A stretch of DNA of 64,000 nt from Acrocarpospora corrugata (GTDB lineage Bacteria; Actinomycetota; Actinomycetes; Streptosporangiales; Streptosporangiaceae), in the NCBI RefSeq assembly GCF_009687845.1, contig NZ_BLAD01000049.1, forward strand, positions 62,001 to 126,000, read 5' to 3'. Below, in pieces: positions 34,461 to 50,602 of the stretch; position 1 is the stretch's first letter, and every line of letters starts with the position of its first letter. Position numbers and translations under genes: made by a program. The notes under the pieces were generated by a model. That model ran no database searches, was not told where the DNA came from, and worked only from the letters and a program-made list of their open reading frames with translations.

Positions 34461-34483
34461 GGTTGATCACCTTTCGAGGAGCG

Positions 34484-35599: not shown

Positions 35600-35644
35600 T
35601 CCACTCCCCCCAACCTTTACCTGTTCCACCTGCAATGATTACGC

Positions 35645-35659
35645 AGAGTAGATATCCAG
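35645..35659 (-). promoter_or_regulatory. Shared 15-base element AGAGTAGATATCCAG upstream of the ZIP-like gene
   Basis: The identical 15-mer occurs at 63967-63981 upstream of the His/Cys-rich peptide gene, in the same orientation relative to its gene. Read on the minus strand, both copies fit GTGTRA-N16-TATCTA, a possible shared promoter with TATCTA as the -10. Otherwise the gap 35600-35815 holds only the start signals of the flanking genes. Confidence 0.5.
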
Positions 35660-35815
35660 CCACGCGGGTTTCACACCCACGCCGCGCGCCTTGACTGAGA
35701 CGTGATCGGGCCGTTTTGAGAGCGGAGCCCTGGCCGTGCCAGACTCGATTTGCCGAGGCCGGAGCATTCCGACATCCTCGGTAGGAAATCCCGCGTAGGT
35801 CCCCCGGAGGCCACT

Positions 35816-36697
35816 TTGTCCCGTTCCGCACTGTTCCTGGCTGCCGGTGCCCTCGCCCTGGCGGCCGTCGCCTGCGCCCCCGAGCCGCAGCCGCCGACCG
35901 CCACCGCCACCGGCGCGGCCCCCGCCAGCCCGTCGGCCTCGGCCACCTGCGCGAAGGACCAGCTCAACCTGCTCACCCCGGGCAAACTCACGATCGGGAC
36001 GGACAAGCCCGCGTTCGAGCCGTGGTTCAAGGACGACAACCCCGCCAACGGCCAGGGCTTCGAAGGCGCGGTCGCCGCGGCCGTCGCCACCACCCTCGGC
36101 TTCACCCCCGCCGAGGTCGCCTGGGAGGTCGTGCCGTTCGACTCCTCGTTCGCGCCCGGCCCGAAGAAGTTCGATTTCGACATCAACCAGGTCTCGATCA
36201 CCCCCGAGCGGGCCAAGGCCGTCGACTTCAGCGACGGGTACTACGCGGTCAAGCAGGCCGTCGTCGCGCTCGAAGGATCGGACTTCGCCGGGGCGACCAC
36301 GCTGGCCGCGCTCAAGTCGGCCAAGATCGGCGTACAGGTCGGGACGACCGCGCTGTCGGCCGTCCAGGACGTGGTCAAGCCCGAGAACGATCCGAGCGTC
36401 TTCAACCAGCAGATCGACGTGGTCAACGCGCTCAAGAACAAGCAGATCGACGCCATCGTGCTCGACCTGCCCACCGCCTTCTACGTCACCGCCGCCCAGA
36501 TCGAAGGCTCCAAGATCGTCGGCCAGTTCGCGGCGAGCTCCGGCGCGCCCGAGGAGTTCGGCCTGCTCTTCGAGAAGGACAACCCGCTGGTCGGCTGCGT
36601 CAACCAGGCGCTCGCCACCCTGAAGAGCTCCGGCGAACTCGCCAAGATCGAAGCCGAGTGGCTGACGTCCACGGCGGGCGCCCCCGAACTCTCGTGA
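35816..36697 (+). CDS. Amino-acid ABC transporter substrate-binding lipoprotein
   Basis: This 293-residue SBP_bac_3 family lipoprotein has a signal peptide ending at a lipobox cysteine (ALALAAVAC). A Thr/Ala/Pro linker leads into the ligand-binding fold (LTIGTDKPAFEPWF, FDFDINQVSITPERAKAVDFS, KIGVQVGTTAL). TTG 35816 is chosen because GGAGG lies five bases upstream and the signal peptide then begins correctly. It binds a polar or basic amino acid (type not resolved). The stop overlaps the permease GTG. Confidence 0.9.
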   Translation: MSRSALFLAAGALALAAVACAPEPQPPTATATGAAPASPSASATCAKDQLNLLTPGKLTIGTDKPAFEPWFKDDNPANGQGFEGAVAAAVATTLGFTPAEVAWEVVPFDSSFAPGPKKFDFDINQVSITPERAKAVDFSDGYYAVKQAVVALEGSDFAGATTLAALKSAKIGVQVGTTALSAVQDVVKPENDPSVFNQQIDVVNALKNKQIDAIVLDLPTAFYVTAAQIEGSKIVGQFAASSGAPEEFGLLFEKDNPLVGCVNQALATLKSSGELAKIEAEWLTSTAGAPELS

Positions 36698-37539
36698 CCA
36701 CCGACTGGGTCAAGAGCGACCGCCAGCTGGCCCGCGAGACGCTGCTGCGCGCCCGCGGCCGGCGCTCGCTCTCCGCCGCCACGACCTCCACCGTCATCGT
36801 GGTCGTCGTGGCGGCCGTGGCGATCACGGCCTCGCCCGGCTGGCCCCGGGTCCAGGAGACCTTCTTCAACTGGGACGCGCTGGTCAACTCGCTCCCGGAC
36901 GTGCTGCGCGGCTTCCTGCTCAACGTCATGCTCTTCATGATCGCCGAGCCGATCGTGCTCGTCCTCGGCCTCGGCGTCGCCCTCGTCCGCGGCCTGCGCG
37001 CCCCCGTGTTCTTCCCGCTCCGCGCCCTCGCCGTGCTCTACACCGACATCTTCCGCGGCATCCCCGTCATCCTGCTCATCTACCTGGTCGGCTTCGGCGT
37101 CCCCGCCCTGCAACTCCAGGGCGCCCCCGCCGACCCGTTCACCCTGGGCATCATCGCCCTGGTCCTGTCCTACACCTCCTTCGTGGCCGAGGTGTTCCGC
37201 TCCGGCATCGACTCCATCCACCCCAGCCAGCGCGCCGCCGCCCGCTCCCTCGGCCTCTCCCACGGCCAGACCATGCGGTACGTCGTGGTCCCCCAGGCCA
37301 TCCGCCGCGTCGTCCCGCCCCTGCTCAACGACTTCGCGTCACTGCAGAAGGACACCGCCCTGGTCGCCCTGCTCGGCCCGCTGGAAGCCCTCCGCCAAGC
37401 CCAGATCCACGTCGCCAAAACCTTCAACTACACGCCGTACGTGGCCGCCGCGCTGCTGTTCATCGCGCTCACCGTCCCGATGGCCCGATTCACCGACCAC
37501 CTCGCCGCCCGGGCGGCCCACCGGCGCGGAGGCGGCTGA
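36694..37539 (+). CDS. Amino-acid ABC transporter permease
   Basis: This 281-residue HisM/GlnP-type permease has one helix near the N-terminus (STVIVVVVAAVAI) and a five-helix core. The EAA coupling loop is present (AARSLGLSHGQTMRYVVVPQAIRRVVPPLLNDF). The GTG start at 36694 overlaps the binding-protein stop (GTGA), and its TGA overlaps the ATPase ATG. A single permease probably forms a homodimer. Confidence 0.93.
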   Translation: MTTDWVKSDRQLARETLLRARGRRSLSAATTSTVIVVVVAAVAITASPGWPRVQETFFNWDALVNSLPDVLRGFLLNVMLFMIAEPIVLVLGLGVALVRGLRAPVFFPLRALAVLYTDIFRGIPVILLIYLVGFGVPALQLQGAPADPFTLGIIALVLSYTSFVAEVFRSGIDSIHPSQRAAARSLGLSHGQTMRYVVVPQAIRRVVPPLLNDFASLQKDTALVALLGPLEALRQAQIHVAKTFNYTPYVAAALLFIALTVPMARFTDHLAARAAHRRGGG

Positions 37540-38261
37540 TGGCCCTGCTCACCATCGACGGCGTCTGGAAGCGCTACCAGGACCACAGCGTCCTGCGCGG
37601 CGTCGACCTCACCGTCAGCTCGCACGAAGTGGTCTGCCTGATCGGCGCCTCAGGCTCCGGCAAGTCCACCCTGCTCCGCTGCGTCAACCTGCTCGAAACC
37701 GTCGACGACGGCGCCATCCACCTGGACGGCCAGGAGATCACCGACGTCCGCGCCGACCCGGACGACATCCGCAAACGCATCGGCATCGTCTTCCAGGCCT
37801 ACAACCTGTTCCCGCACATGACCGTCCTGGACAACATCACCCTCGCCCCCCGCAAGGTGCACGGCGTCCGCCGCGCCGAAGCCGAATCCCAGGCCCGCGA
37901 CATCCTCACCCGCTTCGGCCTCGCCGACAAGGCCGCCACCTACCCCGACCGCCTCTCCGGCGGCCAGCAGCAACGCGTCGCCATCATCCGCGCCCTCGCC
38001 ACCCACCCCCGCCTGCTCCTCCTCGACGAGGTCACCTCCGCCCTCGACCCCACCCTCGTCAACGAGGTCCTCGGCATCATCCGCGAACTCAAACAGACCG
38101 GCATGACCATGATCCTGGCCACCCACGAAATGACCTTCGCCCGCGACATCGCCGACACCATCTGCTTCCTCGACCAGGGCACCCTCGTCGAACACGGCCC
38201 CCCCGCCCAGATTTTCGACGCCCCCCAGAACCCCCGCACCCGCGAATTCCTGTACGGCTGA
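37539..38261 (+). CDS. Amino-acid ABC transporter ATP-binding protein (GlnQ-like)
   Basis: This 240-residue ATPase has Walker A GASGSGKST, Q-loop VFQAYNLFPHMTV, signature LSGGQQQRVAIIRALA, Walker B LLLLDEVTSALDP and the H-loop ATHEMTFARDIAD. The set is typical of the polar amino-acid (GlnQ/HisP) class. It is the last gene of a three-gene operon with one- to four-base overlaps. Confidence 0.95.
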   Translation: MALLTIDGVWKRYQDHSVLRGVDLTVSSHEVVCLIGASGSGKSTLLRCVNLLETVDDGAIHLDGQEITDVRADPDDIRKRIGIVFQAYNLFPHMTVLDNITLAPRKVHGVRRAEAESQARDILTRFGLADKAATYPDRLSGGQQQRVAIIRALATHPRLLLLDEVTSALDPTLVNEVLGIIRELKQTGMTMILATHEMTFARDIADTICFLDQGTLVEHGPPAQIFDAPQNPRTREFLYG

Positions 38262-38263
38262 CG

Positions 38264-38325
38264 CGCATCGGGACGTGCCGGTCGGCGTCGATGACCATCG
38301 GGATGTGCCGGGCGGTGTCGATGGC
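38264..38325. repeat. Two 31-base tandem repeats between glnQ-like and nSTAND1 genes
   Basis: Units 38264-38294 and 38295-38325 share CATCGGGA-y-GTGCCGG-k-CGG-y-GTCGATG with five or six differences. They fill almost the whole convergent junction. They could be a terminator-like element or a decayed duplication. Confidence 0.55.
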
Positions 38326-38337
38326 CGCGGCGGCCCC

Positions 38338-39948
38338 TCAGGCGATCGACTTCATCCCGCCGAGCCCGTCCAAGATCTCCGCCCGCAACGCGACCGCCTC
38401 CGGCGGCGGCTGCGCGGCCAGATCCACCACCCCGTCCAGCACCGCGAGCGCGTCCCGCACCCGCCCCGCCCGCCACAGCGCCTGCCCGAGCGCGAGATGC
38501 ACCGAAACGCTGTTCGCGTCCCAGTCCAGCGCCGACTTGAGCACACTCACCGCCTTACGCGGCTGCCCCTGCGCGATCCACACCCGCCCATCGGCCGCCA
38601 GCACCCTGGCCACCGCGTCGAACCGCTGCATCGCCGCGAACGAGTTGGCCGCCTCAGCCAGCAACCCGTGCGCGGCCTCGGCCTGCCCCAGCGCAGCCGC
38701 CGCCTCCCCCATGATCGCCTTCCCCTGAGCGTGCACCCAGGTCGCCTCCCGCCCCGCAGCCTGCATCGCCACCAGCGCGAGCCCACGCGCGAGGTCCCAG
38801 TTGCCCTGCGCCAGCTCGGCCTCCGCGTCACCCAGCAGCGTCACCGGATTCTCCGCCTTGCGGATCGCCAGGCCCAGCCGCTGGTGCTGGAGCTCATACC
38901 ACCGCACGCCCAGCCGCTGCTCGGTCCTGAGCAGATGCCGCTCCGCCAGCGCCCTGGCGATGGCGTTGGGAATGCCCGCAGTCGTCGGGTATCCCTCCGA
39001 CACGGAGATGCCCGCGCTGTGGTCGGTGACGAACACCTCGTGCAGCCATATCAGGATGGTGCCGCCCGAGACGCCCTGCTCTTCGGCGACCTCGCCGATC
39101 ACCTGACGGCAGAACCCGGCGAGGAACCGGTCCACCTCCACCAGACCGGGCACGTGCTCCAGCGTGATCTCCCGGACATCCGCCGGCAGCGATTCCCACA
39201 GAGCCGAACACACGATCTGCAACTGGCCCGGCTCGAACTCCGGTCCGGACTCGTCGGAACCCCGCAACACACCCGAGGCGTCGACCACCGCCTCGGCCGC
39301 CCCCGGCCCGAACACCCGGCCACTCGCTTCAACCGGCCGGGTCACCGCGGCCAGCGCGGCCTCCCGGCCGAACGGCCGCAGGTGCAACCGCCCGCGCGAA
39401 CCCTGCCCGAGCAGCCGCTCATGCGGCAGCACAGCCGCCAGAAACTCCTCGCGAACACAGAGCAGCAGATGAAGACCATGATGCCGGACGACTGCGCTCG
39501 CCAGCTGCTTTAGGCATTCTTCCCGCTCCCTCCGCCATTTCGGCGGCCCGCCGAACAGCTCCTCCGCCTGGTCGATGGCGATCAGCACAGAAAGCGGATC
39601 CCCGTATTCGTCGAACCTGTCCACCCGCCGATCCAGGAACTCACTGATCGTCATGTCGGCCGGCCGGCCCGGCGCCCAAGCGGCCAGCAGACTCGCCACA
39701 TAGGGATTCCCCGCCGCCGCCTCACGCCGCGCTTCGGCGACCGGCAGCACGTCGGCCGATTCGGCCTCGATTCTGGGCAGCACTCCCGCGTGCAGCAGCG
39801 ACGTTTTGCCCACCTTCGCCGGGCCGAACACCACCGTCAATCCGGTCCCCTGCCAGGAGGTGGCGACATCCTGCGCCTCCTGCTCCCGCCCGAAGAACCA
39901 CCCGTGCTCCGCCGACCGGTACGGCCGAAAGCCCACGTAGGGCGTCAC
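38338..39948 (-). CDS. nSTAND1 ATPase with C-terminal TPR-like repeats
   Basis: This 536-residue protein opens with the nSTAND1 signature YVGFRPYRSAEHGWFFGRE. Walker A GPAKVGKTS is at residues 42-50 and the Walker B/sensor LSVLIAIDQAEELF near 122-135. A winged-helix region spans about 290-370, and helical TPR-like repeats run from about 385 (WVHAQGKAIMGEAAAALGQAEAAHGLLAEA). STAND ATPases are NLR-like switches that oligomerise on sensing a trigger through their repeats. The ATG overlaps the SIR2 gene stop as ATGA, so the two are co-translated. Defence role inferred. Confidence 0.82.
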   Translation of the reverse strand: MTPYVGFRPYRSAEHGWFFGREQEAQDVATSWQGTGLTVVFGPAKVGKTSLLHAGVLPRIEAESADVLPVAEARREAAAGNPYVASLLAAWAPGRPADMTISEFLDRRVDRFDEYGDPLSVLIAIDQAEELFGGPPKWRREREECLKQLASAVVRHHGLHLLLCVREEFLAAVLPHERLLGQGSRGRLHLRPFGREAALAAVTRPVEASGRVFGPGAAEAVVDASGVLRGSDESGPEFEPGQLQIVCSALWESLPADVREITLEHVPGLVEVDRFLAGFCRQVIGEVAEEQGVSGGTILIWLHEVFVTDHSAGISVSEGYPTTAGIPNAIARALAERHLLRTEQRLGVRWYELQHQRLGLAIRKAENPVTLLGDAEAELAQGNWDLARGLALVAMQAAGREATWVHAQGKAIMGEAAAALGQAEAAHGLLAEAANSFAAMQRFDAVARVLAADGRVWIAQGQPRKAVSVLKSALDWDANSVSVHLALGQALWRAGRVRDALAVLDGVVDLAAQPPPEAVALRAEILDGLGGMKSIA

Positions 39949-40823
39949 GACAGGTCCCTCGTTCGCGCTTCCAGTTCCGCGCAGAAGTCAGTCGCCGTGC
40001 CGAAGAAGGTGGATATATTCCAGCCGTGCAGATAATGCGCCAGATAACGCTCGGCCTTCGCTTCCACATCGGTCGCGGAGTCGTTCACTCCCGGCATGAT
40101 CTGAACACTTACGTGACGTCGATGATTGCTACGCGGCGTGCTTCGTGCCAATCCATGGAAGAGCACGCGGAAGGTCCAATCCTGGAGGCTGTAGCCGAGA
40201 AAGAGCAGCGGTTTCATGGTCAGCGCGCGCAGTACCGGAGTCGGCAGCGGGAAACGCCCGGTATACGCGGACGCGTCGACCATGTTGACCAGGTAATTCA
40301 GATAGTCGGCCTCGGTGAGCACCAACGACCGGGGCATCGCCCAGCTTCCATGCAGATAATATACGAGCGGTTTCTCCCAATCAGGGGTCGCTACCACCGG
40401 GACGTCGGTGGAGCCGCCTTCCCACCAGGCCGAAACTTCCTCAGTCGGCTGTTTCCCGCGGCGGCGCAGCGCCTCGGCGAGGAAGTTGTCATAGTTGGTG
40501 GTGAGAAAGGTATCCAGCGGAAACCGGGCCAGAACTGCATGCGGATCGTTCGGGCCGGCAGACCGAGTCCGGCCGCACTCCTGCAGGTACTCACATACTC
40601 GGGTTTTAAGGTCAACCGAATCGCGTAATTCCGCGGCTGCGTATTGCATGACCCGCGCGAGATTGTGATCGTCCGTAAAGGGATATCCATGCTCGATGGC
40701 ATAGCGAGTGCTGAGCTCGGTTCCGGTGGGAAGTGCGCCGACGCACGCGCCCGCGCCGAGGAAAGGCGTGCAGTCACCCCGGCGGAGCTGGCTGGTCAGC
40801 CTTTGCCAGTCCGCCTCGTCCAC
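39945..40823 (-). CDS. SIR2-domain protein (candidate NADase effector)
   Basis: This 292-residue SIR2-like protein has the NAD-binding residues GAGAC at 23-27, TTNYD at 108-112, catalytic His158 in YYLHG and LGYSLQD at 209-215. This set is seen in antiphage NADases of the Thoeris/DSR/Avs5 type. In those systems activation depletes NAD and stops growth. It is coupled to the nSTAND1 ATPase gene and lies 75 bases downstream of fxsA in the same direction. The GTG start is preceded by GGTGGTGG. Whether it cleaves NAD is inferred. Confidence 0.8.
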   Translation of the reverse strand: MDEADWQRLTSQLRRGDCTPFLGAGACVGALPTGTELSTRYAIEHGYPFTDDHNLARVMQYAAAELRDSVDLKTRVCEYLQECGRTRSAGPNDPHAVLARFPLDTFLTTNYDNFLAEALRRRGKQPTEEVSAWWEGGSTDVPVVATPDWEKPLVYYLHGSWAMPRSLVLTEADYLNYLVNMVDASAYTGRFPLPTPVLRALTMKPLLFLGYSLQDWTFRVLFHGLARSTPRSNHRRHVSVQIMPGVNDSATDVEAKAERYLAHYLHGWNISTFFGTATDFCAELEARTRDLS

Positions 40824-40898
40824 GCCACCACCACGACAAGTGAAATAGAATGCGTTAATTCACTGTATATGTCGTGTGAGGATGTGTCACAGTAAAGT

Positions 40899-41075
40899 TC
40901 AGAGTGCCGCGTCGAACGCGGCGATCGCCGTCGCGTCCCGGTCGTCGCGCATACGTTCCAGCGCATGATCCAGCGCCGCGTCGCCAACACCCATGCTCAG
41001 CCCGGAAAGACTGAACTCGCTGAGGTCGATAAGGCCCTTTCCCCGCAGCGCCTTTACCTCGACTGTGTCAGCCAT
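40899..41075 (-). CDS. fxsA: FxsA-like precursor peptide of an FxSxx-COOH RiPP system
   Basis: This 58-codon gene has AGGGAG five bases before ATG 41075. The peptide carries the FxsA-type core LIDLSEFSLSGL (residues 15-26), then a charged helix (DHALERMRDDRD), and ends ATAIAAFDAAL. The terminal FDAAL aligns with the FxSxx-COOH signature except that Ala replaces Ser. The radical SAM enzymes of these systems crosslink the terminal three-residue aromatic motif, so Phe54 and Ala56 are the predicted site. It is divergent from fxsT and in line with the SIR2/nSTAND genes. Identification rests on this context plus the sequence. Confidence 0.78.
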   Translation of the reverse strand: MADTVEVKALRGKGLIDLSEFSLSGLSMGVGDAALDHALERMRDDRDATAIAAFDAAL

Positions 41076-41240
41076 GCAACTCCCTTGACGGTCTCACTGG
41101 GGCTGACACACGAAACAGCCTCAGCCGATCCCGGCCATCTTCCCACGGCGTCCTCCACCTGTCCGCCACCGGGGGGTAAACTTGACCCACTCGAGACGAA
41201 TTCTGCACGTTGGAGACTAGAGCCACTCAAAGGGCGTCGT

Positions 41241-43772
41241 ATGTCGATTTCGTCAGGGCGACCCCGGCTGCCTGGGAACGTGCCCGCGGTCTGGGGAAAG
41301 GTGCCTACCCGCAACAAAAACTTCACCGGGCGTGATGAACTCCTGCGCGAACTACACGCGGATGTCCGCTCGCATATTACCGCGGTCGTTCCGCATGCGC
41401 TGCATGGCATCGGTGGAGTGGGCAAGACGCACGTGGCGATCGAGTACGCATGGCGCTATCGCCACGAATACGACATCGTGTGGTGGATTCCAGCAGATCA
41501 GCCTATTTTGGTGCGTTCGTCATTGGCTGGATTGGCGCCCCACCTCGGCCTCGCCTCACCGGCGAGTGTGGGCATTGAGGAAGCGTCCGCCGCGGTACTC
41601 GACGCGTTGCGGCGGGGGGACCCGTACACGAGATGGCTGCTTATCTTCGACAACGCGGACCAGCCTGCGGAGATCAACGAGATGCTCCCGAGCGGCGGTC
41701 CGGGACAGGTGCTCATCACCTCGCGGGACCACACCTGGCAGGCGAGGGCCGCCACAGTGGTGGTCGACGTGTTCACCCGGCAGGAGAGCATCGATTTTCT
41801 CCGCAAGCGGGTGTCCGCCGCCATCCCGGACGCGGATGCCTCGCGGCTGGCCGAGGCGCTGGGGGATCTTCCGCTCGCGCTGGAGCAGGCCGGGGCGCTC
41901 CAGGCTGAGACAGGCATGTCCGTGCAGGAGTACGAGCGGCTCCTGAACGTTCAGGCGGCGCACCTCCTCGGCGCGAACAAGCCGCCCGACTACCCGCTTT
42001 CGATGACAGCCGCCTGGTCGCTGTCGGTATCCCAACTGGCCGAGAAATTGCCCGTCGCGCTCGAACTCCTGAGATGCTGCGCGTTTTTCGGTCCCGAACC
42101 CATCCCGCGGATGGTCTTCGAGTCGCTGACCGAGAGCCAGTTGGCCAAGTCCAAGCTTCGCGCACTGCTGTCCGACCCCATCATGTTGAGCAAGGCGATC
42201 GGGGTGCTGGCCCGGTTCGCCTTGATCCGCATCGACGCCGACACTCGTACGATCCTGGTGCACCGGCTGGTCCAGACGTTGCTGCGGAGCGAGTTGTCGG
42301 CCGAGGAACGGACAAGTTTCCGTGCGGAGGCACATCGGCTGCTGGCTGCCGCCTCGCCTGACAAAGCAGACGACAACGCGACATGGCCGCGCTACGCCGA
42401 ACTGCTCGGTCATGTGGGGCCGTCAGAGCTGAGCGAGTCGACGGAGCCCGAGATCCGGCATTTCGCATTGTCGATCGTGCGTTTCCTGTTCTCCTCGGGT
42501 GAGCCGAAGTCCGCACTCGACCTGGTCAGGAAGTTCATCGCCGCCTGGGCGACCGATGACAAGCCCCCGACCAAGGACGTCCTGGAGGCTAGGCGCCATC
42601 ACGGGACGATCCTGTTTCAGCTGGGCGACTACAAGCAGGCGTTCGAGCTGAACCGCGAGACGCTCGCCCTCATGCGCGACATTCTCGGCCCTGACGACAA
42701 CGAGACGCTCGCGCTCACCAATGTCCACGGTGCCGACTTCCGTGCGCGGGGCGACTTCACCACCGCGCTTGAGCACGATCTCGAATCGCTGCGTCAGCAT
42801 GAGGCCAAATTCCAGGACCCACCCAGCCAGCGGACACTTCGGGCGATGAACAATCTCGCGGTCGACTATCTCCTGCTCGGCGACTACGCCAAGGCACGCG
42901 AGCATTACGAGCGGACCATTCGGCTCTCGCGCACGGTCAACGCCAACCAGAAGAGCCTGCTGATCTGGAAGAGCGGTCTGGCCCGGGTGGTCTGCCTGAG
43001 CGGTGACTATGCAACCGCCTGCGACATCGGCGAGGCGGCCCACGCGGACGCGGTCGCGGACCTCGGCCCCAACCATCCGACGACATTGCGCATTCTCAGC
43101 GACCTGTCCATTGCCAAACGCCGGGCCGGGATGATCGACGAGGCGTACGAGTTGGCCGAGTTGGCCTTTGAGCGGCAGCAGGGGAGTTTTGGCCGGGACC
43201 ATCCAGATTCGCTGGCTGCCGCGTTGTGCCTGGCGAACGCGCAGCGTACGAGGGGGGAGACCGCTGAGGCGCTTGTTCGGCTGCGGGACACGGCTGTCCG
43301 GTTCCCTGATGTCTACGGGGAGCGGCATCCGTTCAAATATGGCTGTGACACTAACCTGGCGCTGCTGCTGCGGGTCAACGGGGATGTGGCGGCGGCGCGT
43401 GATCTCGACCGGCAGTGTCTCGAAGGGCTGGCGGACGCGCTGGGGCACGACCATCACTACGCACTGACCTGTGCCATCAATCTGGCCAGCGACCTGGCCA
43501 CGCTCGGCGACATCGGGGCGGCCAGGGAGCTCGGTGAGCAGACCCTCGCCACCCTTCGGGAGGCACTCGGTCCCGAGCATCCGCTGACCCTCGCCTGCGC
43601 GGCCAACCTGATCCTGGACCTGCGCTCTCAGGAGGACGTCGAGGAGGCCGAAATTTTGGAAAGGGACACCTTCGAACGCTACGAGCGGGTGCTCGGCCAT
43701 GATCACCCCGATGTGCGGGTGGCGCATGACCGGCAGCGTCTCGACTTCGACTTCGATCCGCCGCCGCTCTGA
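41241..43772 (+). CDS. fxsT: FxsT: NB-ARC and TPR protein of the FxSxx-COOH system
   Basis: This 843-residue protein starts with the block PAVWGKVPTRNKNFTGRDELL that is typical of this family. An NB-ARC ATPase follows, with Walker A GIGGVGKT at 56-63, Walker B WLLIFDNAD, and GDLPLALEQAG (the GLPLA equivalent). More than ten TPRs run from about 410 to the end (DYKQAFELNRETLALMRDILGPDDNETL and similar). It is a STAND-type sensor or scaffold linked genetically to FxsA/FxsB. ATG 41241 is chosen because the frame upstream runs over fxsA; AGGGCG lies nearby. Convergent with the HEXXH gene. Confidence 0.88.
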   Translation: MSISSGRPRLPGNVPAVWGKVPTRNKNFTGRDELLRELHADVRSHITAVVPHALHGIGGVGKTHVAIEYAWRYRHEYDIVWWIPADQPILVRSSLAGLAPHLGLASPASVGIEEASAAVLDALRRGDPYTRWLLIFDNADQPAEINEMLPSGGPGQVLITSRDHTWQARAATVVVDVFTRQESIDFLRKRVSAAIPDADASRLAEALGDLPLALEQAGALQAETGMSVQEYERLLNVQAAHLLGANKPPDYPLSMTAAWSLSVSQLAEKLPVALELLRCCAFFGPEPIPRMVFESLTESQLAKSKLRALLSDPIMLSKAIGVLARFALIRIDADTRTILVHRLVQTLLRSELSAEERTSFRAEAHRLLAAASPDKADDNATWPRYAELLGHVGPSELSESTEPEIRHFALSIVRFLFSSGEPKSALDLVRKFIAAWATDDKPPTKDVLEARRHHGTILFQLGDYKQAFELNRETLALMRDILGPDDNETLALTNVHGADFRARGDFTTALEHDLESLRQHEAKFQDPPSQRTLRAMNNLAVDYLLLGDYAKAREHYERTIRLSRTVNANQKSLLIWKSGLARVVCLSGDYATACDIGEAAHADAVADLGPNHPTTLRILSDLSIAKRRAGMIDEAYELAELAFERQQGSFGRDHPDSLAAALCLANAQRTRGETAEALVRLRDTAVRFPDVYGERHPFKYGCDTNLALLLRVNGDVAAARDLDRQCLEGLADALGHDHHYALTCAINLASDLATLGDIGAARELGEQTLATLREALGPEHPLTLACAANLILDLRSQEDVEEAEILERDTFERYERVLGHDHPDVRVAHDRQRLDFDFDPPPL

Positions 43773-43775
43773 CGG

Positions 43776-45086
43776 TCAGCTGTTCCTGGCCCGCCAGCGG
43801 GTGCGGTGCTGGTCGGCGCGTTCCCAGGAGAGCAGGCGCGCGTCCTCGGGCACGGACTCGTCGGCCCACGCGTCCAACTGGCTGATCATCTGGGCGACGA
43901 ATCTGTCCCCCCATTCGGTGAGGCGACCGCTGTCCAGGATCGTGCCCGCGACCATCCGGGACGCCGCCCGCCACCGGGCGAACTCCGCGTTGGCGTGCAC
44001 CTCGGCCGGCCCGGTTTCGACGGTGCGCTGCCGCCGCCAGAAGTCGGTCACGCCCAGGTGCGCGTAGACACCCTGGAGCAGGCCGGGAACCGGCCGAGGG
44101 TCTTCGCGCCAGGGCGCGTAGTAGCGCGATCCGTCGTCGGGCTTGGTCAGGTCCATGATGTCGAGCAGGGCGGAGAGTTTGGCGTGCGCGACCTCGTGCG
44201 CCAGTGTCAGCGCCAGCCAGCAGGCGTCGGGCGGGGTGGACAGCGCCACGCAGCCGAACGTCTCCCGGGAGGTGGCGCTGACCAGGCCGTGCGCGGGCGC
44301 GGCCAGCGGGGTGAGCACGGAGATGGCGCCGGCGACGTCGTCGGCCACCCCGGTGTGGTGCTCAACCAGGAGCTCCCACATCGGCGGCAGCACGGCCTGC
44401 CACTGCGCGAACTCCGCCGCGCTGAGCCGTCCGGCCAGGTTGGGCGAGCCCGGCATGCGGAAGGGGTCCAGGTCGTCGACCGTGAAGCGGATGGGCGTGC
44501 CGCTCGACTCGGTGGTCAGGGTGCGCAGTCCGCGCCAGCCGGGAGCGTCGCCGCCGGGGTTCGCGGGGATCCTGATCACGGTGCCCGCCGCCGAGATCTC
44601 GGCCCCGGCCGGGTGGGAGTGCACGGTCGCGGTGGTCACCGTGGGCGGCAGCATCGCCTGGCCGAGCGACGGCAGCGTGACCACGCCCTCCGGCGCGGGG
44701 ACGTCGATGTCGCATTCGGTGCCGGAGACGATGGCCGCGGTCGCCGCGATGGCGGCGAGCTGGCCGGGGTTCGCGCCGGCCCGGCCGGTCTCCAGCGCGT
44801 CCACCGTGTGCCGGGCCCAGGCCCCCACGGACGGGTGGCGGAGCGCCCGGTCCACCGAGGCGGGGTCGCTGTGCTCGATCGCGGCGAGCAGGTCGAAGGC
44901 GCGCCTGGCCAGGCCGGCGTCGGGGTGGCCGGTGGCGCGGGCGGTGGTCATCACGCCGCGGACCAGCAGGACGTGCTTACTCCGCTGCGCGGCGGCCAGC
45001 TGGGTGATTACGGCGGGTCCGCCGCCGCCCGAGGCCAGCTCGTCGAAGACGTCGGTGGAGACTTCGTGCATCCGAAGCTCTGTCAT
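43776..45086 (-). CDS. HEXXH-motif protein of the FxSxx-COOH cassette
   Basis: This 436-residue protein has a zinc-type motif HEVAH at residues 297-301, in LALTLAHEVAHAKLSALLD. The conserved FGCVALSTPPDA precedes it and YYAPWREDPRPVPGLLQGVYAH follows. This matches the HEXXH-domain family (TIGR04267 as I recall) that accompanies radical SAM peptide-modification enzymes. It could be a leader protease or a further modifying enzyme. Its ATG overlaps the fxsB stop (ATGA), so production is coupled. Confidence 0.85.
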   Translation of the reverse strand: MTELRMHEVSTDVFDELASGGGGPAVITQLAAAQRSKHVLLVRGVMTTARATGHPDAGLARRAFDLLAAIEHSDPASVDRALRHPSVGAWARHTVDALETGRAGANPGQLAAIAATAAIVSGTECDIDVPAPEGVVTLPSLGQAMLPPTVTTATVHSHPAGAEISAAGTVIRIPANPGGDAPGWRGLRTLTTESSGTPIRFTVDDLDPFRMPGSPNLAGRLSAAEFAQWQAVLPPMWELLVEHHTGVADDVAGAISVLTPLAAPAHGLVSATSRETFGCVALSTPPDACWLALTLAHEVAHAKLSALLDIMDLTKPDDGSRYYAPWREDPRPVPGLLQGVYAHLGVTDFWRRQRTVETGPAEVHANAEFARWRAASRMVAGTILDSGRLTEWGDRFVAQMISQLDAWADESVPEDARLLSWERADQHRTRWRARNS

Positions 45087-46279
45087 AGCCCCTCGGATCG
45101 GGCCGCAAGGTCGGCCTCGACGGTGTCTTTGATGTGGTGGATGAAGCGGAACAGATCCCGGCAGTAGATCGACGGGTTGGCGAAGCCGTTTTCTTCCTTG
45201 TAGCGGTGGGCGTACAGGCCGGCGCCGCAGACCGTGTGCACCGGGCAGTCGAGGCAGGTCGCGCAGAGCGCTTCGACGCCGATCTGGCGGGCCGCGATCG
45301 ACGGGAGCTTCAGCACGTCGTCGAGTGAGTCCCGGCTGACGTGCAGCCCGGTGTACGGCGCGCCCTCGTACGCCGACTTGAGCAGGTCGGACTGCTCGAT
45401 CGAACCGTCGGTCTCGATCACCACCATGGCCACGGGCGAGATCCCAATCTGCTCGGTACGGGACGCCCCACCCAGCAGCAGATGAATGATCTCCCCGAAC
45501 AGCCGCACGTAGGTGGCCCGCCGCGGACTGCCGTACCAGCGATCGAAGATCGGAATCAGCCAGTCCGCGTACGGCGTCGCCGTCGAAGCGGGATATAGCG
45601 AGGGCGGCGGCACCACCCAGTTGCCGTGCGGAAGCAGGAAGTCGATCGCCGGCGGCCCGAACTCCAGCAGCGCCTGATAGGCCCCGACCGGATCATTGCG
45701 CAGATCGACCGTGCAGAGCAGCCCGCTGAACAGATGCCGGTACCCCTCGGTCAGCCGGGTCAGCGCCGCCATGACGTCACCATGGCTCCCCCGGCCGTTG
45801 GCGCGCTTCCTGCTGCGATCGTGCATGACCTGGTCACCGTCCAGGCTCACCCCGATCCGCACGTCCAACTCGTCCAGCACCCGCAGGAACCCGTCCGTCA
45901 GCAGGACGGCGTTGGTCTGCAGGGTGACCTTGACCCGGACCTTGTCCCCGGCTGCGGCGCGGACCCGGCTGACGATGCTCCGAATCCGGTCCTGACCGGC
46001 GAGAAGCGGTTCACCCCCGTGCAGGATGACCTCGATGTCCCGGAGGCCGTGGCGCGCCGCATGCTCCCCGATCCGCACGGCTGCCGCGTCAATTGTCGCG
46101 TCGTCCATATAGAGCGGACGACCCCGCCAACTGGAATCGGCCATTTCGTACATATAGCAGTAATCGCACGCAAGGTCGCATCTGCTATAGATCTTCAGAA
46201 TGAACTGCCGGAACGGCGTCGGCTGCCAGCCGCCCGTCATCAGCCTGGTGACATCCAGGGTGGACGGCCACTCGTGCAC
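45083..46279 (-). CDS. fxsB: FxsB: radical SAM/SPASM peptide-modifying enzyme
   Basis: This 398-residue enzyme has the radical SAM cysteines 34, 38 and 41 (CDLACDYCYMYE). Other features are the GGEPLL loop, SLDGDQVMHD, and a C-terminal SPASM domain with cysteines in CATCLDCPVHTVCGAG and NPSIYC. The N-terminus (STLDVTRLMTGGWQPTPFRQFILK) is the FxsB form. Family members join an aromatic ring carbon to the beta-carbon two residues later in the precursor tail. The GTG start has GGAGG ten bases upstream and TATTCT as a possible -10. The first gene of a two-gene operon. Confidence 0.92.
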   Translation of the reverse strand: MHEWPSTLDVTRLMTGGWQPTPFRQFILKIYSRCDLACDYCYMYEMADSSWRGRPLYMDDATIDAAAVRIGEHAARHGLRDIEVILHGGEPLLAGQDRIRSIVSRVRAAAGDKVRVKVTLQTNAVLLTDGFLRVLDELDVRIGVSLDGDQVMHDRSRKRANGRGSHGDVMAALTRLTEGYRHLFSGLLCTVDLRNDPVGAYQALLEFGPPAIDFLLPHGNWVVPPPSLYPASTATPYADWLIPIFDRWYGSPRRATYVRLFGEIIHLLLGGASRTEQIGISPVAMVVIETDGSIEQSDLLKSAYEGAPYTGLHVSRDSLDDVLKLPSIAARQIGVEALCATCLDCPVHTVCGAGLYAHRYKEENGFANPSIYCRDLFRFIHHIKDTVEADLAARSEGL

Positions 46280-46319
46280 CGTTGATCAGCCTCCAAACGT
46301 GGACTCCAGAATATGAGGG

Positions 46320-46393
46320 TCCAGCGGGCTGGGCGGGCGATTTCCTTTGTTGAGGCATTGTCGAGCGCATGATTCCGGTGTGCACCCGCTGGA
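46320..46393. promoter_or_regulatory. Divergent fxsB/desaturase promoter region with split inverted repeat
   Basis: TCCAGCGGG (46320-46328) is the exact reverse complement of CCCGCTGGA (46385-46393), 56 bases apart, in the 184-base gap between the divergent starts. It could bind one regulator controlling both genes by looping. TATTCT on the minus strand nearby may be the fxsB -10. Confidence 0.4.
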
Positions 46394-46463
46394 ATACATT
46401 GATCACTTGGAGCGACCGTCCGGGGCTCGGGGCGATTTGCCGCAAGTGATGAGGAAGAGGCCC

Positions 46464-47402
46464 ATGACGATTACTGACAGGCGCTCGATCGACTATGACG
46501 GCGCGTCGCCGTTCCCCGGGGCCGCCGAGTTGGCGCCGGTCGGCCGGGTGCGGGCGGGGCTGACGGCGGCGATCGTGGTGCTGCCGTTCTTCGCGCTGGG
46601 GGCGGGGATCTGGCTGAGCGGGGTCACGGCCGTCGATCTCGTGCTGGCCGGGGTCTGCTACGTGGTCACGGGGCTGGGGGTGACGGTCGGGTTCCATCGG
46701 CTGCTCACCCATGGGTCGTTCCGGGCGCCCCGGTGGCTGCGGGTGATGCTGGCGGTGGCCGCGTCGATGAGTTTCCAGGGCAATGTGGTCGACTGGGTGG
46801 CGGTGCATCGCCGCCATCACGCGTTCACCGACCGGCCGGGGGATCCCCATTCGCCGTACCGGTACGGCGCCGGCTGGCGCGGGCAGCTGCGCGGGCTGGC
46901 CCACGCGCACCTGGGCTGGCTGTTCACCGACGCGCAGAGCCCGCCCGCGCGGTATGCCCCTGACCTGCTCGCCGACCCGGCGATGGTGCGGATCGCCCGC
47001 GCCTTCCCGGCGCTGTGCGCGCTCTCGCTGCTGCTCCCGTCCGCGGCCGGCTGGCTGATCAGCGGCAGCCTGTACGGCGGTCTGACCGCCTTCATCTGGG
47101 CGGGCCTGGTCCGGGTCGCGGTGCTCCAGCACGTCACCTGGAGCGTCAACTCGCTCTGCCATCTGGTCGGCAGCCGCCCGCACGCCACCCGCCGGCACGA
47201 CCGGTCGACCAACCTGTGGCCGCTGGCCCTGGCCTCGTTCGGGGAGAGCTGGCACAACGGCCACCACAGCGAGCCCACCTGCGCCCGGCACGGCCGGGGC
47301 CGCCTCCAGATCGACCTGTCGGCCAATCTGATCGCCCTGTTCGAGTGGCTGGGCTGGGCCAAGGACGTCCGCTGGCCGGACCCGAAGCGCACACCCCGAT
47401 AG
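46464..47402 (+). CDS. Acyl-CoA/acyl-lipid delta-9-type desaturase
   Basis: This 312-residue membrane di-iron enzyme has the three histidine boxes HRLLTH, HRRHH and HNGHH, and four or so membrane helices. It inserts a double bond into fatty acyl chains using oxygen and an electron donor. ATG 46464 is preferred since AAGAGG lies just before it; ATG 46449 is in frame. Such desaturases often respond to temperature; no regulator is adjacent. Confidence 0.92.
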   Translation: MTITDRRSIDYDGASPFPGAAELAPVGRVRAGLTAAIVVLPFFALGAGIWLSGVTAVDLVLAGVCYVVTGLGVTVGFHRLLTHGSFRAPRWLRVMLAVAASMSFQGNVVDWVAVHRRHHAFTDRPGDPHSPYRYGAGWRGQLRGLAHAHLGWLFTDAQSPPARYAPDLLADPAMVRIARAFPALCALSLLLPSAAGWLISGSLYGGLTAFIWAGLVRVAVLQHVTWSVNSLCHLVGSRPHATRRHDRSTNLWPLALASFGESWHNGHHSEPTCARHGRGRLQIDLSANLIALFEWLGWAKDVRWPDPKRTPR

Positions 47403-47467
47403 CGGCATTCCGGTGGCCTCATGCTGCAATGGAGTGATTGCGCAGCGTGAGGGAATCGGGGGCGGCG

Positions 47468-48478
47468 ATGGCGGGCACGATGCGGGTGGTCGGATTTCGG
47501 GAGAACCTGCCGGTGGGGGATCCTTCGTGTCTCATCGACGCGGAGGTCCCCATTCCGCGGGCCACAGGGCGGGATCTGCTGGTCCGGGTGAAGGCGGTCT
47601 CCGTCAATCCCGTCGACGTGAAGGAGCGGATGAGCCGCCCGGCCGGCGGCGAACTGCAGATTCTCGGGTACGACGCGGCGGGGGTCGTCGAGGCCGTCGG
47701 GGACGAGGCCGGGCTGTTCCGGGTGGGGGACGAGGTGTACTACGCGGGGTCCATCGCCCGCTCCGGGAGCAACGCCGAGTTCCAGCTGGTGGATGAGCGG
47801 CTGGTCGGGCGCAAGCCGTACATTCTGGACTTCGCGGAGGCGGCGGCGATGCCGTTGACGGCGATCACCGCCTGGGAGACCCTGCACGACCGGTTCCGGC
47901 TCACCAAGGACAGCGAGGGGACGCTGGTCGTGGTGGGCGCGGCGGGGGGCGTCGGGTCGATGATGCTGCAGCTGGCGCGGCGGCTGTGCCCGGACCTGAC
48001 CCTGATCGGTACGGCGTCGCGGGCCAAGTCGCGGGTGTGGGCCGAGGAGATGGGGGCCCAGCACGTGGTCGACCACCACGGCGATCTCGCGGCGGCGGTG
48101 CTCGCGGTGTCGCCAGAAGGGGTGGACTACATCCTCAGCCCGTATTCGGCGGCGAACCTGGAGGCGTACCAGAAGATGCTGAAGCCGGGGGGTCAGGTCA
48201 CGGCGATCGACGACCCGCACGGGCTGGACATCTCGGGGCTGAAGAGCAAGAGCCTGACCTGGCACTGGGAGTTCGTGTTCACCCGGCCGTTGTACGCGCC
48301 GCACGACACCACCCACCATGACCTGCTCAACGTGGTCGCCGAACTGGTGGACGGGCAGCAGGCGCGGAGCACGCTGACCCAGCGGATGCGGCCGATCAAT
48401 GCCGCCACGCTGCGGGAGGCGCACGCGACGCTGGAGCGGTCGGGGACCATCGGCAAGGTCGTCGTGGAGGGCTGGTGA
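47468..48478 (+). CDS. Zinc-free MDR oxidoreductase (quinone reductase-like, TIGR02817 type)
   Basis: This 336-residue NADPH-dependent medium-chain reductase has MRVVGFRENLPVGDPSCLID, KAVSVNPVDVKERM, ILGYDAAGVVEAVG and the Rossmann motif VVGAAGGVGSMMLQLA. No structural-zinc cysteine cluster is present. It belongs to the Zn-ADH-like/quinone oxidoreductase group that reduces enones or quinones. ATG 47468 has GGGGGCGG upstream; ATG 47480 matches the family N-terminus equally well. Ends at a strong bidirectional terminator. Confidence 0.88.
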   Translation: MAGTMRVVGFRENLPVGDPSCLIDAEVPIPRATGRDLLVRVKAVSVNPVDVKERMSRPAGGELQILGYDAAGVVEAVGDEAGLFRVGDEVYYAGSIARSGSNAEFQLVDERLVGRKPYILDFAEAAAMPLTAITAWETLHDRFRLTKDSEGTLVVVGAAGGVGSMMLQLARRLCPDLTLIGTASRAKSRVWAEEMGAQHVVDHHGDLAAAVLAVSPEGVDYILSPYSAANLEAYQKMLKPGGQVTAIDDPHGLDISGLKSKSLTWHWEFVFTRPLYAPHDTTHHDLLNVVAELVDGQQARSTLTQRMRPINAATLREAHATLERSGTIGKVVVEGW

Positions 48479-48482
48479 CCAG

Positions 48483-48515
48483 CGGCCGCACCGCCGGGTG
48501 ACGGCGGTGCGGCCG
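48483..48515. terminator. Bidirectional terminator, 13-base stem
   Basis: CGGCCGCACCGCC pairs with GGCGGTGCGGCCG around a 7-base loop, between two convergent genes ending at 48478 and 48526. Confidence 0.85.
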
Positions 48516-48525
48516 GATCGGCAGG

Positions 48526-49380
48526 TCAGTCGCCGAGGTCGATGGAGCCGAGGACTTCGGACGGGAGGGTGAGGGAGGTCGTCAGGTCTTCGACCAGGCG
48601 CTCGTCCGGCGCGTAGATCCAGACCTGCTTGCCCCAGTTGGTGAGGTAGGTGTCAGAGCTCAGCTGGAGCCTGAACGGCTTGACCTTGCCCTCGGGATCG
48701 CGCATGAGGATGTTCTCGTTCGAGGCGATCCGCCGGATCAGGCCGTCGGAGTTGCCGATCCACAGCTTCCAGTTCACCTTGAAGCTGACCTTGAAGCCCA
48801 GCAGATCGGTACGGAACAGGTTGGATCCGCTGTACACCGTGGTGGGCACGCCGTCGACGACGCCGCCGGCCTTCTTGACGTCCACGTCGGCGAGCAGCAG
48901 CTTCAGCTCGCGCGGGGAGAGCACGTTGATGGCCGAGCCGCCGAGCCCGGCCTGGGTGCCGAAGCCCTTGGACTTCAGCCAGGTCTTGCCCGGGGGCAGC
49001 AGGATGTCGGTCAGGCCACCGGAGATGTAGCTGGTGTCCTTGATGGTGATCGTGTGGGTCGGGCCGGTGAGCTTGTCCGGCTCCAGGCCGAGGAGCTCGG
49101 CGACATCTTCGGTCACCCGGGTGGAGACGCCGTAGTCGATCGTGCTGATGATGCTGCTGGCCGCCACCTGGGAGCGGCCGAACTGCAGGTCACCGTACGA
49201 GCGGGTTTTGATGCCGTAGCTCGGGTTGGTTTTCGAGACGGACGTGAAATGCACGCCGTGAGCGCTTTTTAACTGTTTTGCGAGGGCGGCGACGGGATCT
49301 GCTGCCCGCGCCTGAGCCACTCCCGATGTCAGTGCGGCGGTTACCGCCACGCACATGAGCACCGTGATCAAACGCCTCAT
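48526..49380 (-). CDS. Secreted protein of unknown function (LppX/LolA-like fold possible)
   Basis: This 284-residue exported protein has a clear signal peptide (MRRLITVLMCVAVTAALTSG...AQARA). The body is beta-rich, with alternating strands such as THTITIKDTSYISGG and FKVSFKVNWKLWIGNSDGLIRRI. That last block resembles the half-barrel lipid-carrier proteins LppX/LprG and other actinobacterial LolA-like proteins, but no lipobox cysteine is present. GGAGGG precedes ATG 49380. Function not assigned. Confidence 0.65.
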   Translation of the reverse strand: MRRLITVLMCVAVTAALTSGVAQARAADPVAALAKQLKSAHGVHFTSVSKTNPSYGIKTRSYGDLQFGRSQVAASSIISTIDYGVSTRVTEDVAELLGLEPDKLTGPTHTITIKDTSYISGGLTDILLPPGKTWLKSKGFGTQAGLGGSAINVLSPRELKLLLADVDVKKAGGVVDGVPTTVYSGSNLFRTDLLGFKVSFKVNWKLWIGNSDGLIRRIASNENILMRDPEGKVKPFRLQLSSDTYLTNWGKQVWIYAPDERLVEDLTTSLTLPSEVLGSIDLGD

Positions 49381-49615
49381 GTGAGGCCCTCCGTGTGAGA
49401 TCCGGTTTCCCCGTGGATGCCCGCAATTCGGGCATCTTGCGAAACTGTGACCTATGCCCGGATGGCCTGACAAGCGGTTCACCGATCTTGCGACCGTTTT
49501 GAAAGGAAGCGTTCCTTACGGCGCCGGGCGGCGCAGAGGGCGGGTGGGGGCATACCGGTCCTCGTTGATCAAAGTGAAATCGGCCCCCGATCCCGGGCTT
49601 TTGGGGCATGCTCGG

Positions 49616-50602
49616 GTGGTGCTCGACGTGGCTGATGTGACTGCTCCGTCCCTGGCGGAGCCGAGACGGCGTTGGGTGAGCGTGCTCGTCTGGCTCGGCG
49701 TGGCGCCGTTCGGGCTGTGGGCGGTGCTGCGGATCTGGCCGCACGACCTGGACTTCCTGTGGGTGCAGCTGGTCGCGTTCACGCCGGCGGTCGTGGTGGT
49801 TTCGCTGGTCGCGCCGCTGGTCGCGCTGGTGACGCGGCGGTGGATCGCGCTCGTGGTGGCCGTGGCGGTGTCCGGGATGCTGGCGGCGGAGGTGCTTCCC
49901 CGGGCGATTCCGGGAACGAATACCGCCGTGTCAGGGCAGCCGCTCCGGGTGCTCGCGTCGAACTCTGAAGTCGGCTCGGTGCCGCCGGAGGCGTTGGTCG
50001 GGTTGGTGGCCGAGTTGCGTCCTGATGCTCTCGCGCTGCAGGAGTTGACGCCGCAGGCTGTGGAAGGGCTCAGGACGGCCGGGTTGGGGCAGGCCCTGCC
50101 GTTCTACGCGGGTGAGGCGCGGGAAGGGGCCGGCGGATCCGGCATCTATGCGCGGTTCCCGGTGAAAATGACCAACAACCTGGATTACGGTGGATTCGGC
50201 CAGGTCAAGGCGACGGTGGACAGGCCCGGCGGTGCGTTCGACGTCGTTTCGGTGCATCCGTGCGCGCCTGTTGAGAAATCCCGCCACTGGTGCTGGGCGA
50301 CCGGGCTCGACACGTTGCCCGCGCCGGACAACACGATTCTGCTGGGCGACTTCAACGCCACCCTGGACCATGCCGGGATGCGGCAACTCCTCAACCTCGG
50401 CTACCGGGATGCCGCCGACACCACCGGCGACGGCCTCGCTACCACCTGGCCGGTCACCTGGGATTTCCGTGGGCTGCCCATTCCGGCCGTGACGCTCGAC
50501 CACATCCTCGTCGACCAGCGGACCGCTGTTCACGGGTTCAGCACGCACGTTCTTCCTGAGACCGACCATCGAGCCGTGTTCGCCGTTGTCACGACTTTCT
50601 AG
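49616..50602 (+). CDS. Membrane-anchored endonuclease/exonuclease/phosphatase family protein
   Basis: The protein of about 328 residues has three N-terminal membrane helices (WLGVAPFGLWAVLRIW, LVAFTPAVVVVSLVAPLVALV, WIALVVAVAVSGMLAAEVL). An extracytoplasmic EEP domain follows, with ALQELTPQ, GDFNATLDH, LDHILVD and the terminal ETDHRAV. Such actinobacterial proteins are secreted or membrane-bound phosphodiesterases; the substrate is unknown. The start is uncertain: GTG 49616 is used, while the frame stays open to ATG 49454 over sequence that looks intergenic. Confidence 0.8.
   Translation: MVLDVADVTAPSLAEPRRRWVSVLVWLGVAPFGLWAVLRIWPHDLDFLWVQLVAFTPAVVVVSLVAPLVALVTRRWIALVVAVAVSGMLAAEVLPRAIPGTNTAVSGQPLRVLASNSEVGSVPPEALVGLVAELRPDALALQELTPQAVEGLRTAGLGQALPFYAGEAREGAGGSGIYARFPVKMTNNLDYGGFGQVKATVDRPGGAFDVVSVHPCAPVEKSRHWCWATGLDTLPAPDNTILLGDFNATLDHAGMRQLLNLGYRDAADTTGDGLATTWPVTWDFRGLPIPAVTLDHILVDQRTAVHGFSTHVLPETDHRAVFAVVTTF

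Follow-up and report, generated by a model that had tools for sequence, protein, structure and literature searches.

What does a small peptide gene do beside its own maturation enzymes, a gene for a SIR2-domain protein and a gene for a STAND NTPase? The question is raised by a window of 64,000 nucleotides from Acrocarpospora corrugata (contig NZ_BLAD01000049.1, positions 62,001 to 126,000 of the forward strand), in which a 58-residue peptide with the C-terminus FDAAL is encoded in a cassette of the FxSxx-COOH (Fxs) type. A sequence-only reading of this window had seen in the tail, where an Ala takes the place of the Ser of FxSxx, an unusual precursor and possibly a variant product class. The answer proposed here is that the locus is probably a six-gene conflict system in which a triceptide is coupled to STAND and SIR2 proteins, and in which the modified peptide would gate a response that destroys nicotinamide adenine dinucleotide (NAD). 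The gene content and order, their conserved co-occurrence, the active-site motifs and the predicted fold of the SIR2 protein can be read directly from the sequence, and the linkage of SIR2 and nSTAND1 genes to Fxs cassettes is a more telling result than the Ala variant.

The proposed system would comprise the precursor FxsA, the maturase FxsB, an aKG-HExxH-type peptide hydroxylase and FxsT, joined to a SIR2 protein and an nSTAND1-TPR protein. On the strand of the fxsA-like gene (40899..41075, minus strand), and 3' of it, come a SIR2_2-domain gene (39945..40823; 292 aa) and then the gene for an nSTAND1 NTPase with C-terminal TPRs (38338..39948; 536 aa; PF20703, 2.6e-31), which begins at a GTG and shares 4 bases with the end of the SIR2 gene. 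Divergent from fxsA, across an intergenic stretch (41076..41240), lies fxsT (41241..43772, plus strand), which encodes an NB-ARC (AP-ATPase) NTPase with TPRs, of 843 aa from the chosen ATG; its NF040586 score of 979 bits was obtained on the longer open reading frame 40965-43772. Convergent with fxsT and overlapping each other by 4 bases are the gene for the HExxH enzyme (43776..45086, minus strand) and fxsB (45083..46279, minus strand). The former has the HEVAH motif and scores 173 bits against a TIGR04267 cut-off of 40, and the latter has the CxxxCxxC motif (CDLACDYC) and scores 468.1 bits against a TIGR04269 cut-off of 370, so they are assigned to the aKG-HExxH-type peptide beta-hydroxylases and to the FxsB family of cyclophane-forming radical SAM/SPASM maturases, respectively. 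FxsT, like these two, is over its own family cut-off. The earlier placing of FxsT, an HEXXH protein and FxsB around the precursor is thus borne out; its description as the full supporting set holds for these three and is incomplete in leaving out the SIR2 and nSTAND1-TPR genes.

Among solved structures, FxsB aligns over residues 25-386 with ChlB (PDB 9gm3, 252 bits), and the HExxH protein matches ChlH weakly (PDB 8s5f, 23.8 bits), being closer to 22nu (156 bits); in the window, the two enzymes are separate proteins. PADLOC returned nothing for FxsT, nSTAND1, the HExxH protein or FxsA, and distant viperin models only for FxsB; for the SIR2 protein, it returned ThsA (5.7e-20).

Is the association of these six genes conserved? 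Relatives were taken from 80 loci found by means of the window FxsB, and these, together with the source genome's own loci, yielded 75 FxsA by iterated profile. An nSTAND1 match, by a profile built from seven proteins including that of the window, lies 3' of FxsA on the same strand in 64 of the 75 cases (three of the 64 being FxsA of locus L058 that share one match). Of the 80 FxsB-centred loci, 22 contain a SIR2 relative, as do two further loci of the source genome (L029 and L031). Seen from the side of SIR2, a relative is present in 58 of 297 genomes of the order, and 92 distinct genes remain once those with identical last 150 residues are merged. FxsA lies directly upstream of 75 of them (66 with E below 1e-3, three with E of about 0.23-0.24, and six by tail pattern), nSTAND1 lies downstream of 86, and FxsT lies on the opposite strand in 85. 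Larger stretches added FxsA beside HExxH/FxsB in one more SIR2 locus (L260) and a Trp-type FxsA-like precursor beside HExxH in eight more, which brings the SIR2 relatives that stand in a cassette with FxsA or an FxsA-like precursor to 84 of 92 (75 + 1 + 8).

A wider draw from the class gave a SIR2 match in 20 of 394 genomes, 11 with the window's family, eight with a family termed f19 (ten genes) and one with f21. Since f19 is labelled only as belonging to the same class, it is taken to be from another order. Around nine of its ten genes, FxsB, HExxH, FxsT, SIR2 and nSTAND1 are all present in 9/9 stretches, in a changed order, and FxsA stands beside FxsB in eight, the ninth stretch ending there. 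That the same genes stay together although their order differs speaks for a single functional unit. It might be supposed that SIR2 and nSTAND1 have nothing to do with the cassette and only happen to adjoin it; most FxsB-centred loci are without SIR2, and the source genome does contain a SIR2-nSTAND1 pair near which no FxsA was recognised (L181, C95:20850-28710). However, this explanation is scarcely credible, given the proportion of SIR2 relatives found in FxsA or FxsA-like cassettes, on which a chance neighbourhood was rejected, and given that the linkage outlasts gene rearrangement in f19.

The SIR2 protein itself matches PF13289 (5.5e-26) and carries the motifs GAG, TTN110YD and LH158G; all of the GAG, TTN-x-D and LHG-type motifs are kept in 85 of the 92 relatives. 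N110 and H158, which we take to be the catalytic Asn and His, are invariant in the 18 of 18 sequences aligned, and H158 aligns, as counted by hand, with KomC H146, the residue named in the mutant entry 9xvc. Matches by sequence in the PDB include ThsA and KomC. A structural model built from 18 sequences (pLDDT 82.9) gave 50 listed PDB matches, all of which are ThsA, Kongming (KomC, KomBC, HAM-SIR2) or DSR2, with TMq between 0.51 and 0.71. With the fold, the Asn and the His in place, the window SIR2 is predicted to be a protein that resembles a defence-type NADase. It shares its predicted fold and active-site residues with ThsA (Thoeris), KomC (Kongming) and DSR2; it differs from them in sequence (about 20% identity), in being single-domain, and in standing beside genes for a STAND protein and a peptide.

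The FxsA without an nSTAND1 match have varied surroundings. An MFS transporter comes next in five loci (L046, L047, L052, L055, and L086), an NB-ARC/TPR protein in L044, an aminoglycoside N-acetyltransferase-like frame in L051 and a frame of no family in L048; in L028, the FxsT of the second cassette is of TIR-NB-ARC type, and the flank is shorter than 3 kb for L069 and for the second FxsA of L108. In L046 and L052, the MFS gene is followed by an EAD2-VMAP protein and, in L052, then by an AAA_5 protein, so that in these two loci a conflict system predicted by Kaur 2020 takes the place of nSTAND1. That paper associates FxSxx peptide-processing genes with VMAP-ternary conflict systems and proposes that the peptide is a toxin or a signal (PMC7159879). 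As these systems are described there, the window shares with them an FxSxx peptide, an HExxH protein, a radical SAM/SPASM enzyme, an NB-ARC/TPR protein and a predicted role in conflict. It differs in its partner, which is nSTAND1-TPR with SIR2: no VMAP, vWA or MoxR was found in the six cassette frames or the others scanned (34467-50602, 18 in total), and by this measure the locus is not a VMAP-ternary system. The words SIR2, sirtuin and nSTAND do not occur in the text of Kaur 2020.

The same observations bear on another explanation, in which the locus is an ordinary triceptide cluster making an exported signal or toxin, and SIR2 and nSTAND1 serve in self-protection or regulation and are not effectors. 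The MFS transporter after FxsA in five sister cassettes would fit an exported product, the cassettes of the source genome have differing tails, as would be expected of specific signals, and Kaur 2020 itself suggests a peptide toxin or signal. However, the five MFS cassettes are among those without an nSTAND1 match, and EAD2-VMAP comes next in the two examined further; moreover, no transporter was found among the six window cassette frames scanned, and the SIR2 active-site motifs are conserved in most of the relatives. We consider this explanation unlikely, and the six-gene conflict system remains the preferred one.

How firmly can the peptide of the window be called an FxsA? Its gene has an ATG start, a Shine-Dalgarno-like AAGGGAG immediately 5' of this start, within the intergenic stretch, and GC fractions of 0.73/0.46/0.75 at codon positions 1/2/3. 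TIGR04268 is the sole NCBIfam family listed for it at E up to 1, and the match spans residues 17-58. The 58-codon gene with an FDAAL end and Ala in place of Ser, as first described, is confirmed by the frame and by this match; the profile check, with an E of 6.7e-5, found the similarity that had been expected, although at 23.1 bits the peptide misses the curated cut-off of 28. The F-x-S-x-x C-terminus is likewise only partly present in FDAAL (codons 40902..40916, minus strand), where the Phe, placed by family alignment, and the tail length fit, and the Ser is Ala. In whole-genome scans with TIGR04268, sub-cut-off matches occurred in 8 of 14 control genomes and matches over the cut-off in none of the 14, and in the source genome the C39 precursor alone passed. 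Because the short model gives sub-cut-off matches in control genomes, its score alone is weak, and the assignment of the peptide to FxsA is carried by the cassette context, with FxsB and FxsT at the same locus, and by its relatives, more than by that score. The locus is like the known Fxs cassettes (TIGR04268, TIGR04269, NF040586) in its helical leader, near-C-terminal Phe, FxsB, FxsT and HExxH enzyme; it differs from them in having Ala at the third core position (X3), in its sub-cut-off score, and in the SIR2 and nSTAND1-TPR genes after FxsA. A promoter scan (2 sites against 0.7 expected) and a terminator scan (2 against 2.8 expected) were not used, and a search of plasmids with the cassette DNA gave zero matches.

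Does Ala at X3 set the peptide apart? Among the 75 FxsA, X3 is Ser in 44, Asn in 20, Ala in 8 and Gln in 3. A wider set of 126 distinct FxsA, in which those found beside SIR2 relatives were added and the Phe was placed by profile alignment without residue restriction at X3, has 72 Ser, 30 Asn, 18 Ala and 6 Gln, which is the count of Ser against Ala that had been called for; these four residues account for all 126, in a collection whose profile included the tail, so that odd tail forms could be missed. The first core residue is Phe in 123, His in 2 and Tyr in 1, and in 18 of the 126 the middle residue is Thr (11), Val (5), Ile (1) or Gly (1). Tails in the same genus include FDASL, FDASI and FQAAL, and the cassettes of the source genome carry FDAAL, FDSAI, FQNSIEVAP and FQSSL. 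On a tree of FxsB made by a quick method (88 rows, of which 71 were labelled and 17 without an FxsA label went uncounted), Ala is scattered: seven changes are required, five of them forced by starred branches, and Ala is no more clustered than in shuffled labels (122 of 500 shuffles as low). The FxsB of the Ala-type second cassette of L032 is 95.3% identical to that of the Ser-type L074, and those of L045 (Ala) and L053 (Ser) are 92.2% identical. Since near-identical FxsBs serve both forms, FxsB seems to need little change for Ala. Judged by these counts, FDAAL is a recurrent minority form of FxsA and not a new product class; the idea of a rare or unique form was rejected, and with it the view of the tail as unusual. 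Ala for Ser, one of the four residues seen at X3, may tune or distinguish the peptide.

The restriction of X3 to residues with an unbranched beta-carbon fits a crosslink to that carbon, and here the sequence-only reading, which allowed Ala as an acceptor, fares well. The maturase MscB is presumably a member of the FxsB family. According to PMC11002830, MscB joins Phe to Ser, and the acceptor to which HaaB and ScaB attach His is the Ala beta-carbon. The Haa/Sca triceptides therein thus offer Ala as the beta-carbon acceptor in a three-residue cyclophane; they differ from the window in the ring residue, which is His there and Phe here, and in the maturase, which in the window is of the FxsB family. 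By this analogy, crosslinking of Phe-Asp-Ala by the window FxsB is plausible.

The contrary possibility is that FDAAL goes uncrosslinked, the Ala at X3 being a sign that the precursor has decayed or is left unmodified. It is true that, like the window peptide, all seven other Ala-type FxsA tested fall short of the TIGR04268 cut-off, two being without any match, and that the Ser-type FxsBs nearest to that of the window are only 69-71% identical to it, so that its tolerance of Ala is argued by analogy. However, only one of three Ser-type FxsA passes the same cut-off. Ala forms thus escape the curated model (all eight that were scored fail), and so do two of the three Ser forms. Moreover, the frame is open, its Shine-Dalgarno-like site and the full cassette are kept, Ala recurs among the distinct FxsA, starred branches force five of its changes on the FxsB tree, and Ala is the acceptor for HaaB and ScaB. 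An uncrosslinked FDAAL is therefore distinctly unlikely.

The chemistry proposed for the window peptide is the following. FxsB would form a bond between the ring of the Phe and the beta-carbon of the Ala at X3, and the HExxH enzyme would then hydroxylate the tail, most likely at the Asp between them. PMC12636437 reports that ChlH hydroxylates Asp and His and depends on a preinstalled cyclophane; since ChlH acts on these residues once the cyclophane is present, the Asp of FDAAL would be the likeliest target. In the same paper, the HEXXH enzymes PflC and PosC are described as cutting the backbone oxidatively at Ala in ARMD, with small residues favouring the reaction, and it could be imagined that the window enzyme does so at the Ala of FDAAL to leave a C-terminal amide instead of a hydroxylated Asp. 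This is improbable, however, for PflC and PosC act on other precursors, ChlH hydroxylates, and the window enzyme has its better match in 22nu and a weak one in ChlH.

Several variants of the cassette were observed. Where FxsT is distant (32-34% identity), all of the eight cassettes retrieved have Trp-core FxsA-like precursors (LWQSD, LWQED, LWQKN, RWNKSD; L257:4753-5115, L258:13099-13299, L259:14351-14626, and L261-L265), which lie beside HExxH, with SIR2 and nSTAND1. In their stretches of 13-19.5 kb, no relative of FxsB was found by blastp and no CxxxCxxC in any frame of at least 220 aa. The six FxsA loci in which no HExxH was detected (L043, L050, L070, L075, L083, and L104) all have F-x-N tails, these loci being few and partly related. 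In 18 loci whose precursor was missing or weak, a pattern search yielded candidates of the FDN type in L088, L101 and L104 and only chance-looking frames in L063, L082 and L110.

Other variants concern SIR2. In L178:1228-3921 and L189:3231-5831, an FxsT-type NB-ARC region is fused to a C-terminal SIR2 domain that replaces the TPRs, and single frames in L079 and L081 match both FxsT and SIR2. Frames of similar length in L186:3102-5741 and L180:9094-11664 carry a SIR2 domain in the corresponding position, their N-terminal parts being unscanned; L180, L186 and L189 additionally hold an FxsA/SIR2 cassette. Paired head-to-head Fxs/SIR2 cassettes with differing FxsA tails occur in L032, L033, L034 and L036. 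In the source genome, L028:1-6545 (C51) has FxsB, FxsT and nSTAND1 and no recognised FxsA, HExxH or SIR2; its frame 4357-4521 resembles a SIR2 fragment by eye, and this first cassette may be decayed. Further along L028 (7646-11566 and 13663-16002) are an FxsB whose frame also contains an HExxH match, and a ParA-TIR-NB-ARC-TPR protein.

How, then, would the six genes act together? In the preferred reading, the modified peptide would be a ligand that sets the threshold of the FxsT and nSTAND1 switches, either by holding or by tripping them, and these switches, when tripped by phage or another stress, would unleash SIR2, so that NAD is destroyed and the cell stopped. Several observations weigh against it. 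No SIR2 relative was seen in 58 of the 80 FxsB-centred stretches, and SIR2 is therefore not needed by the cassette generally; no nSTAND1 match was found for 11 of the 75 FxsA; FxsA was recognised in 64 of the 80 loci and in 16 was not; and eight of the 92 SIR2 genes, one of them in the source genome, have no FxsA-like gene in the stretch examined. The identity of the modelled SIR2 to the solved NADases is low, as noted above. An ABC transporter nearby (36022-38261) would also fit an exported peptide, as would the MFS genes of the sister cassettes. Lastly, the window peptide was among the seeds of the FxsA profile, as were three of the eight Trp-type precursors for theirs, and the scores of these seeds are thus circular. 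In the open-licence literature, with few subscription papers covered, no tested biological role for FxsA peptides was found; a link between cyclophanes and SIR2 led there to chemistry papers only, and what was found there on nSTAND1 with SIR2 contains nothing on such peptides.

These cassettes may, tentatively, represent an unrecognised class of immune or conflict system, in which a ribosomal peptide, crosslinked or otherwise altered in a rapidly varying tail (FxS, FxN, FxA, FxQ, or else a Trp core without a nearby radical SAM gene), would key a pair of STAND proteins controlling a SIR2 effector, and in which the several cassettes of one genome would be separate specificities. That a peptide and its maturases occur in a conserved set together with two STAND NTPases and a SIR2 protein of the defence type makes for a direct and testable proposal, that of a peptide-gated destruction of NAD.

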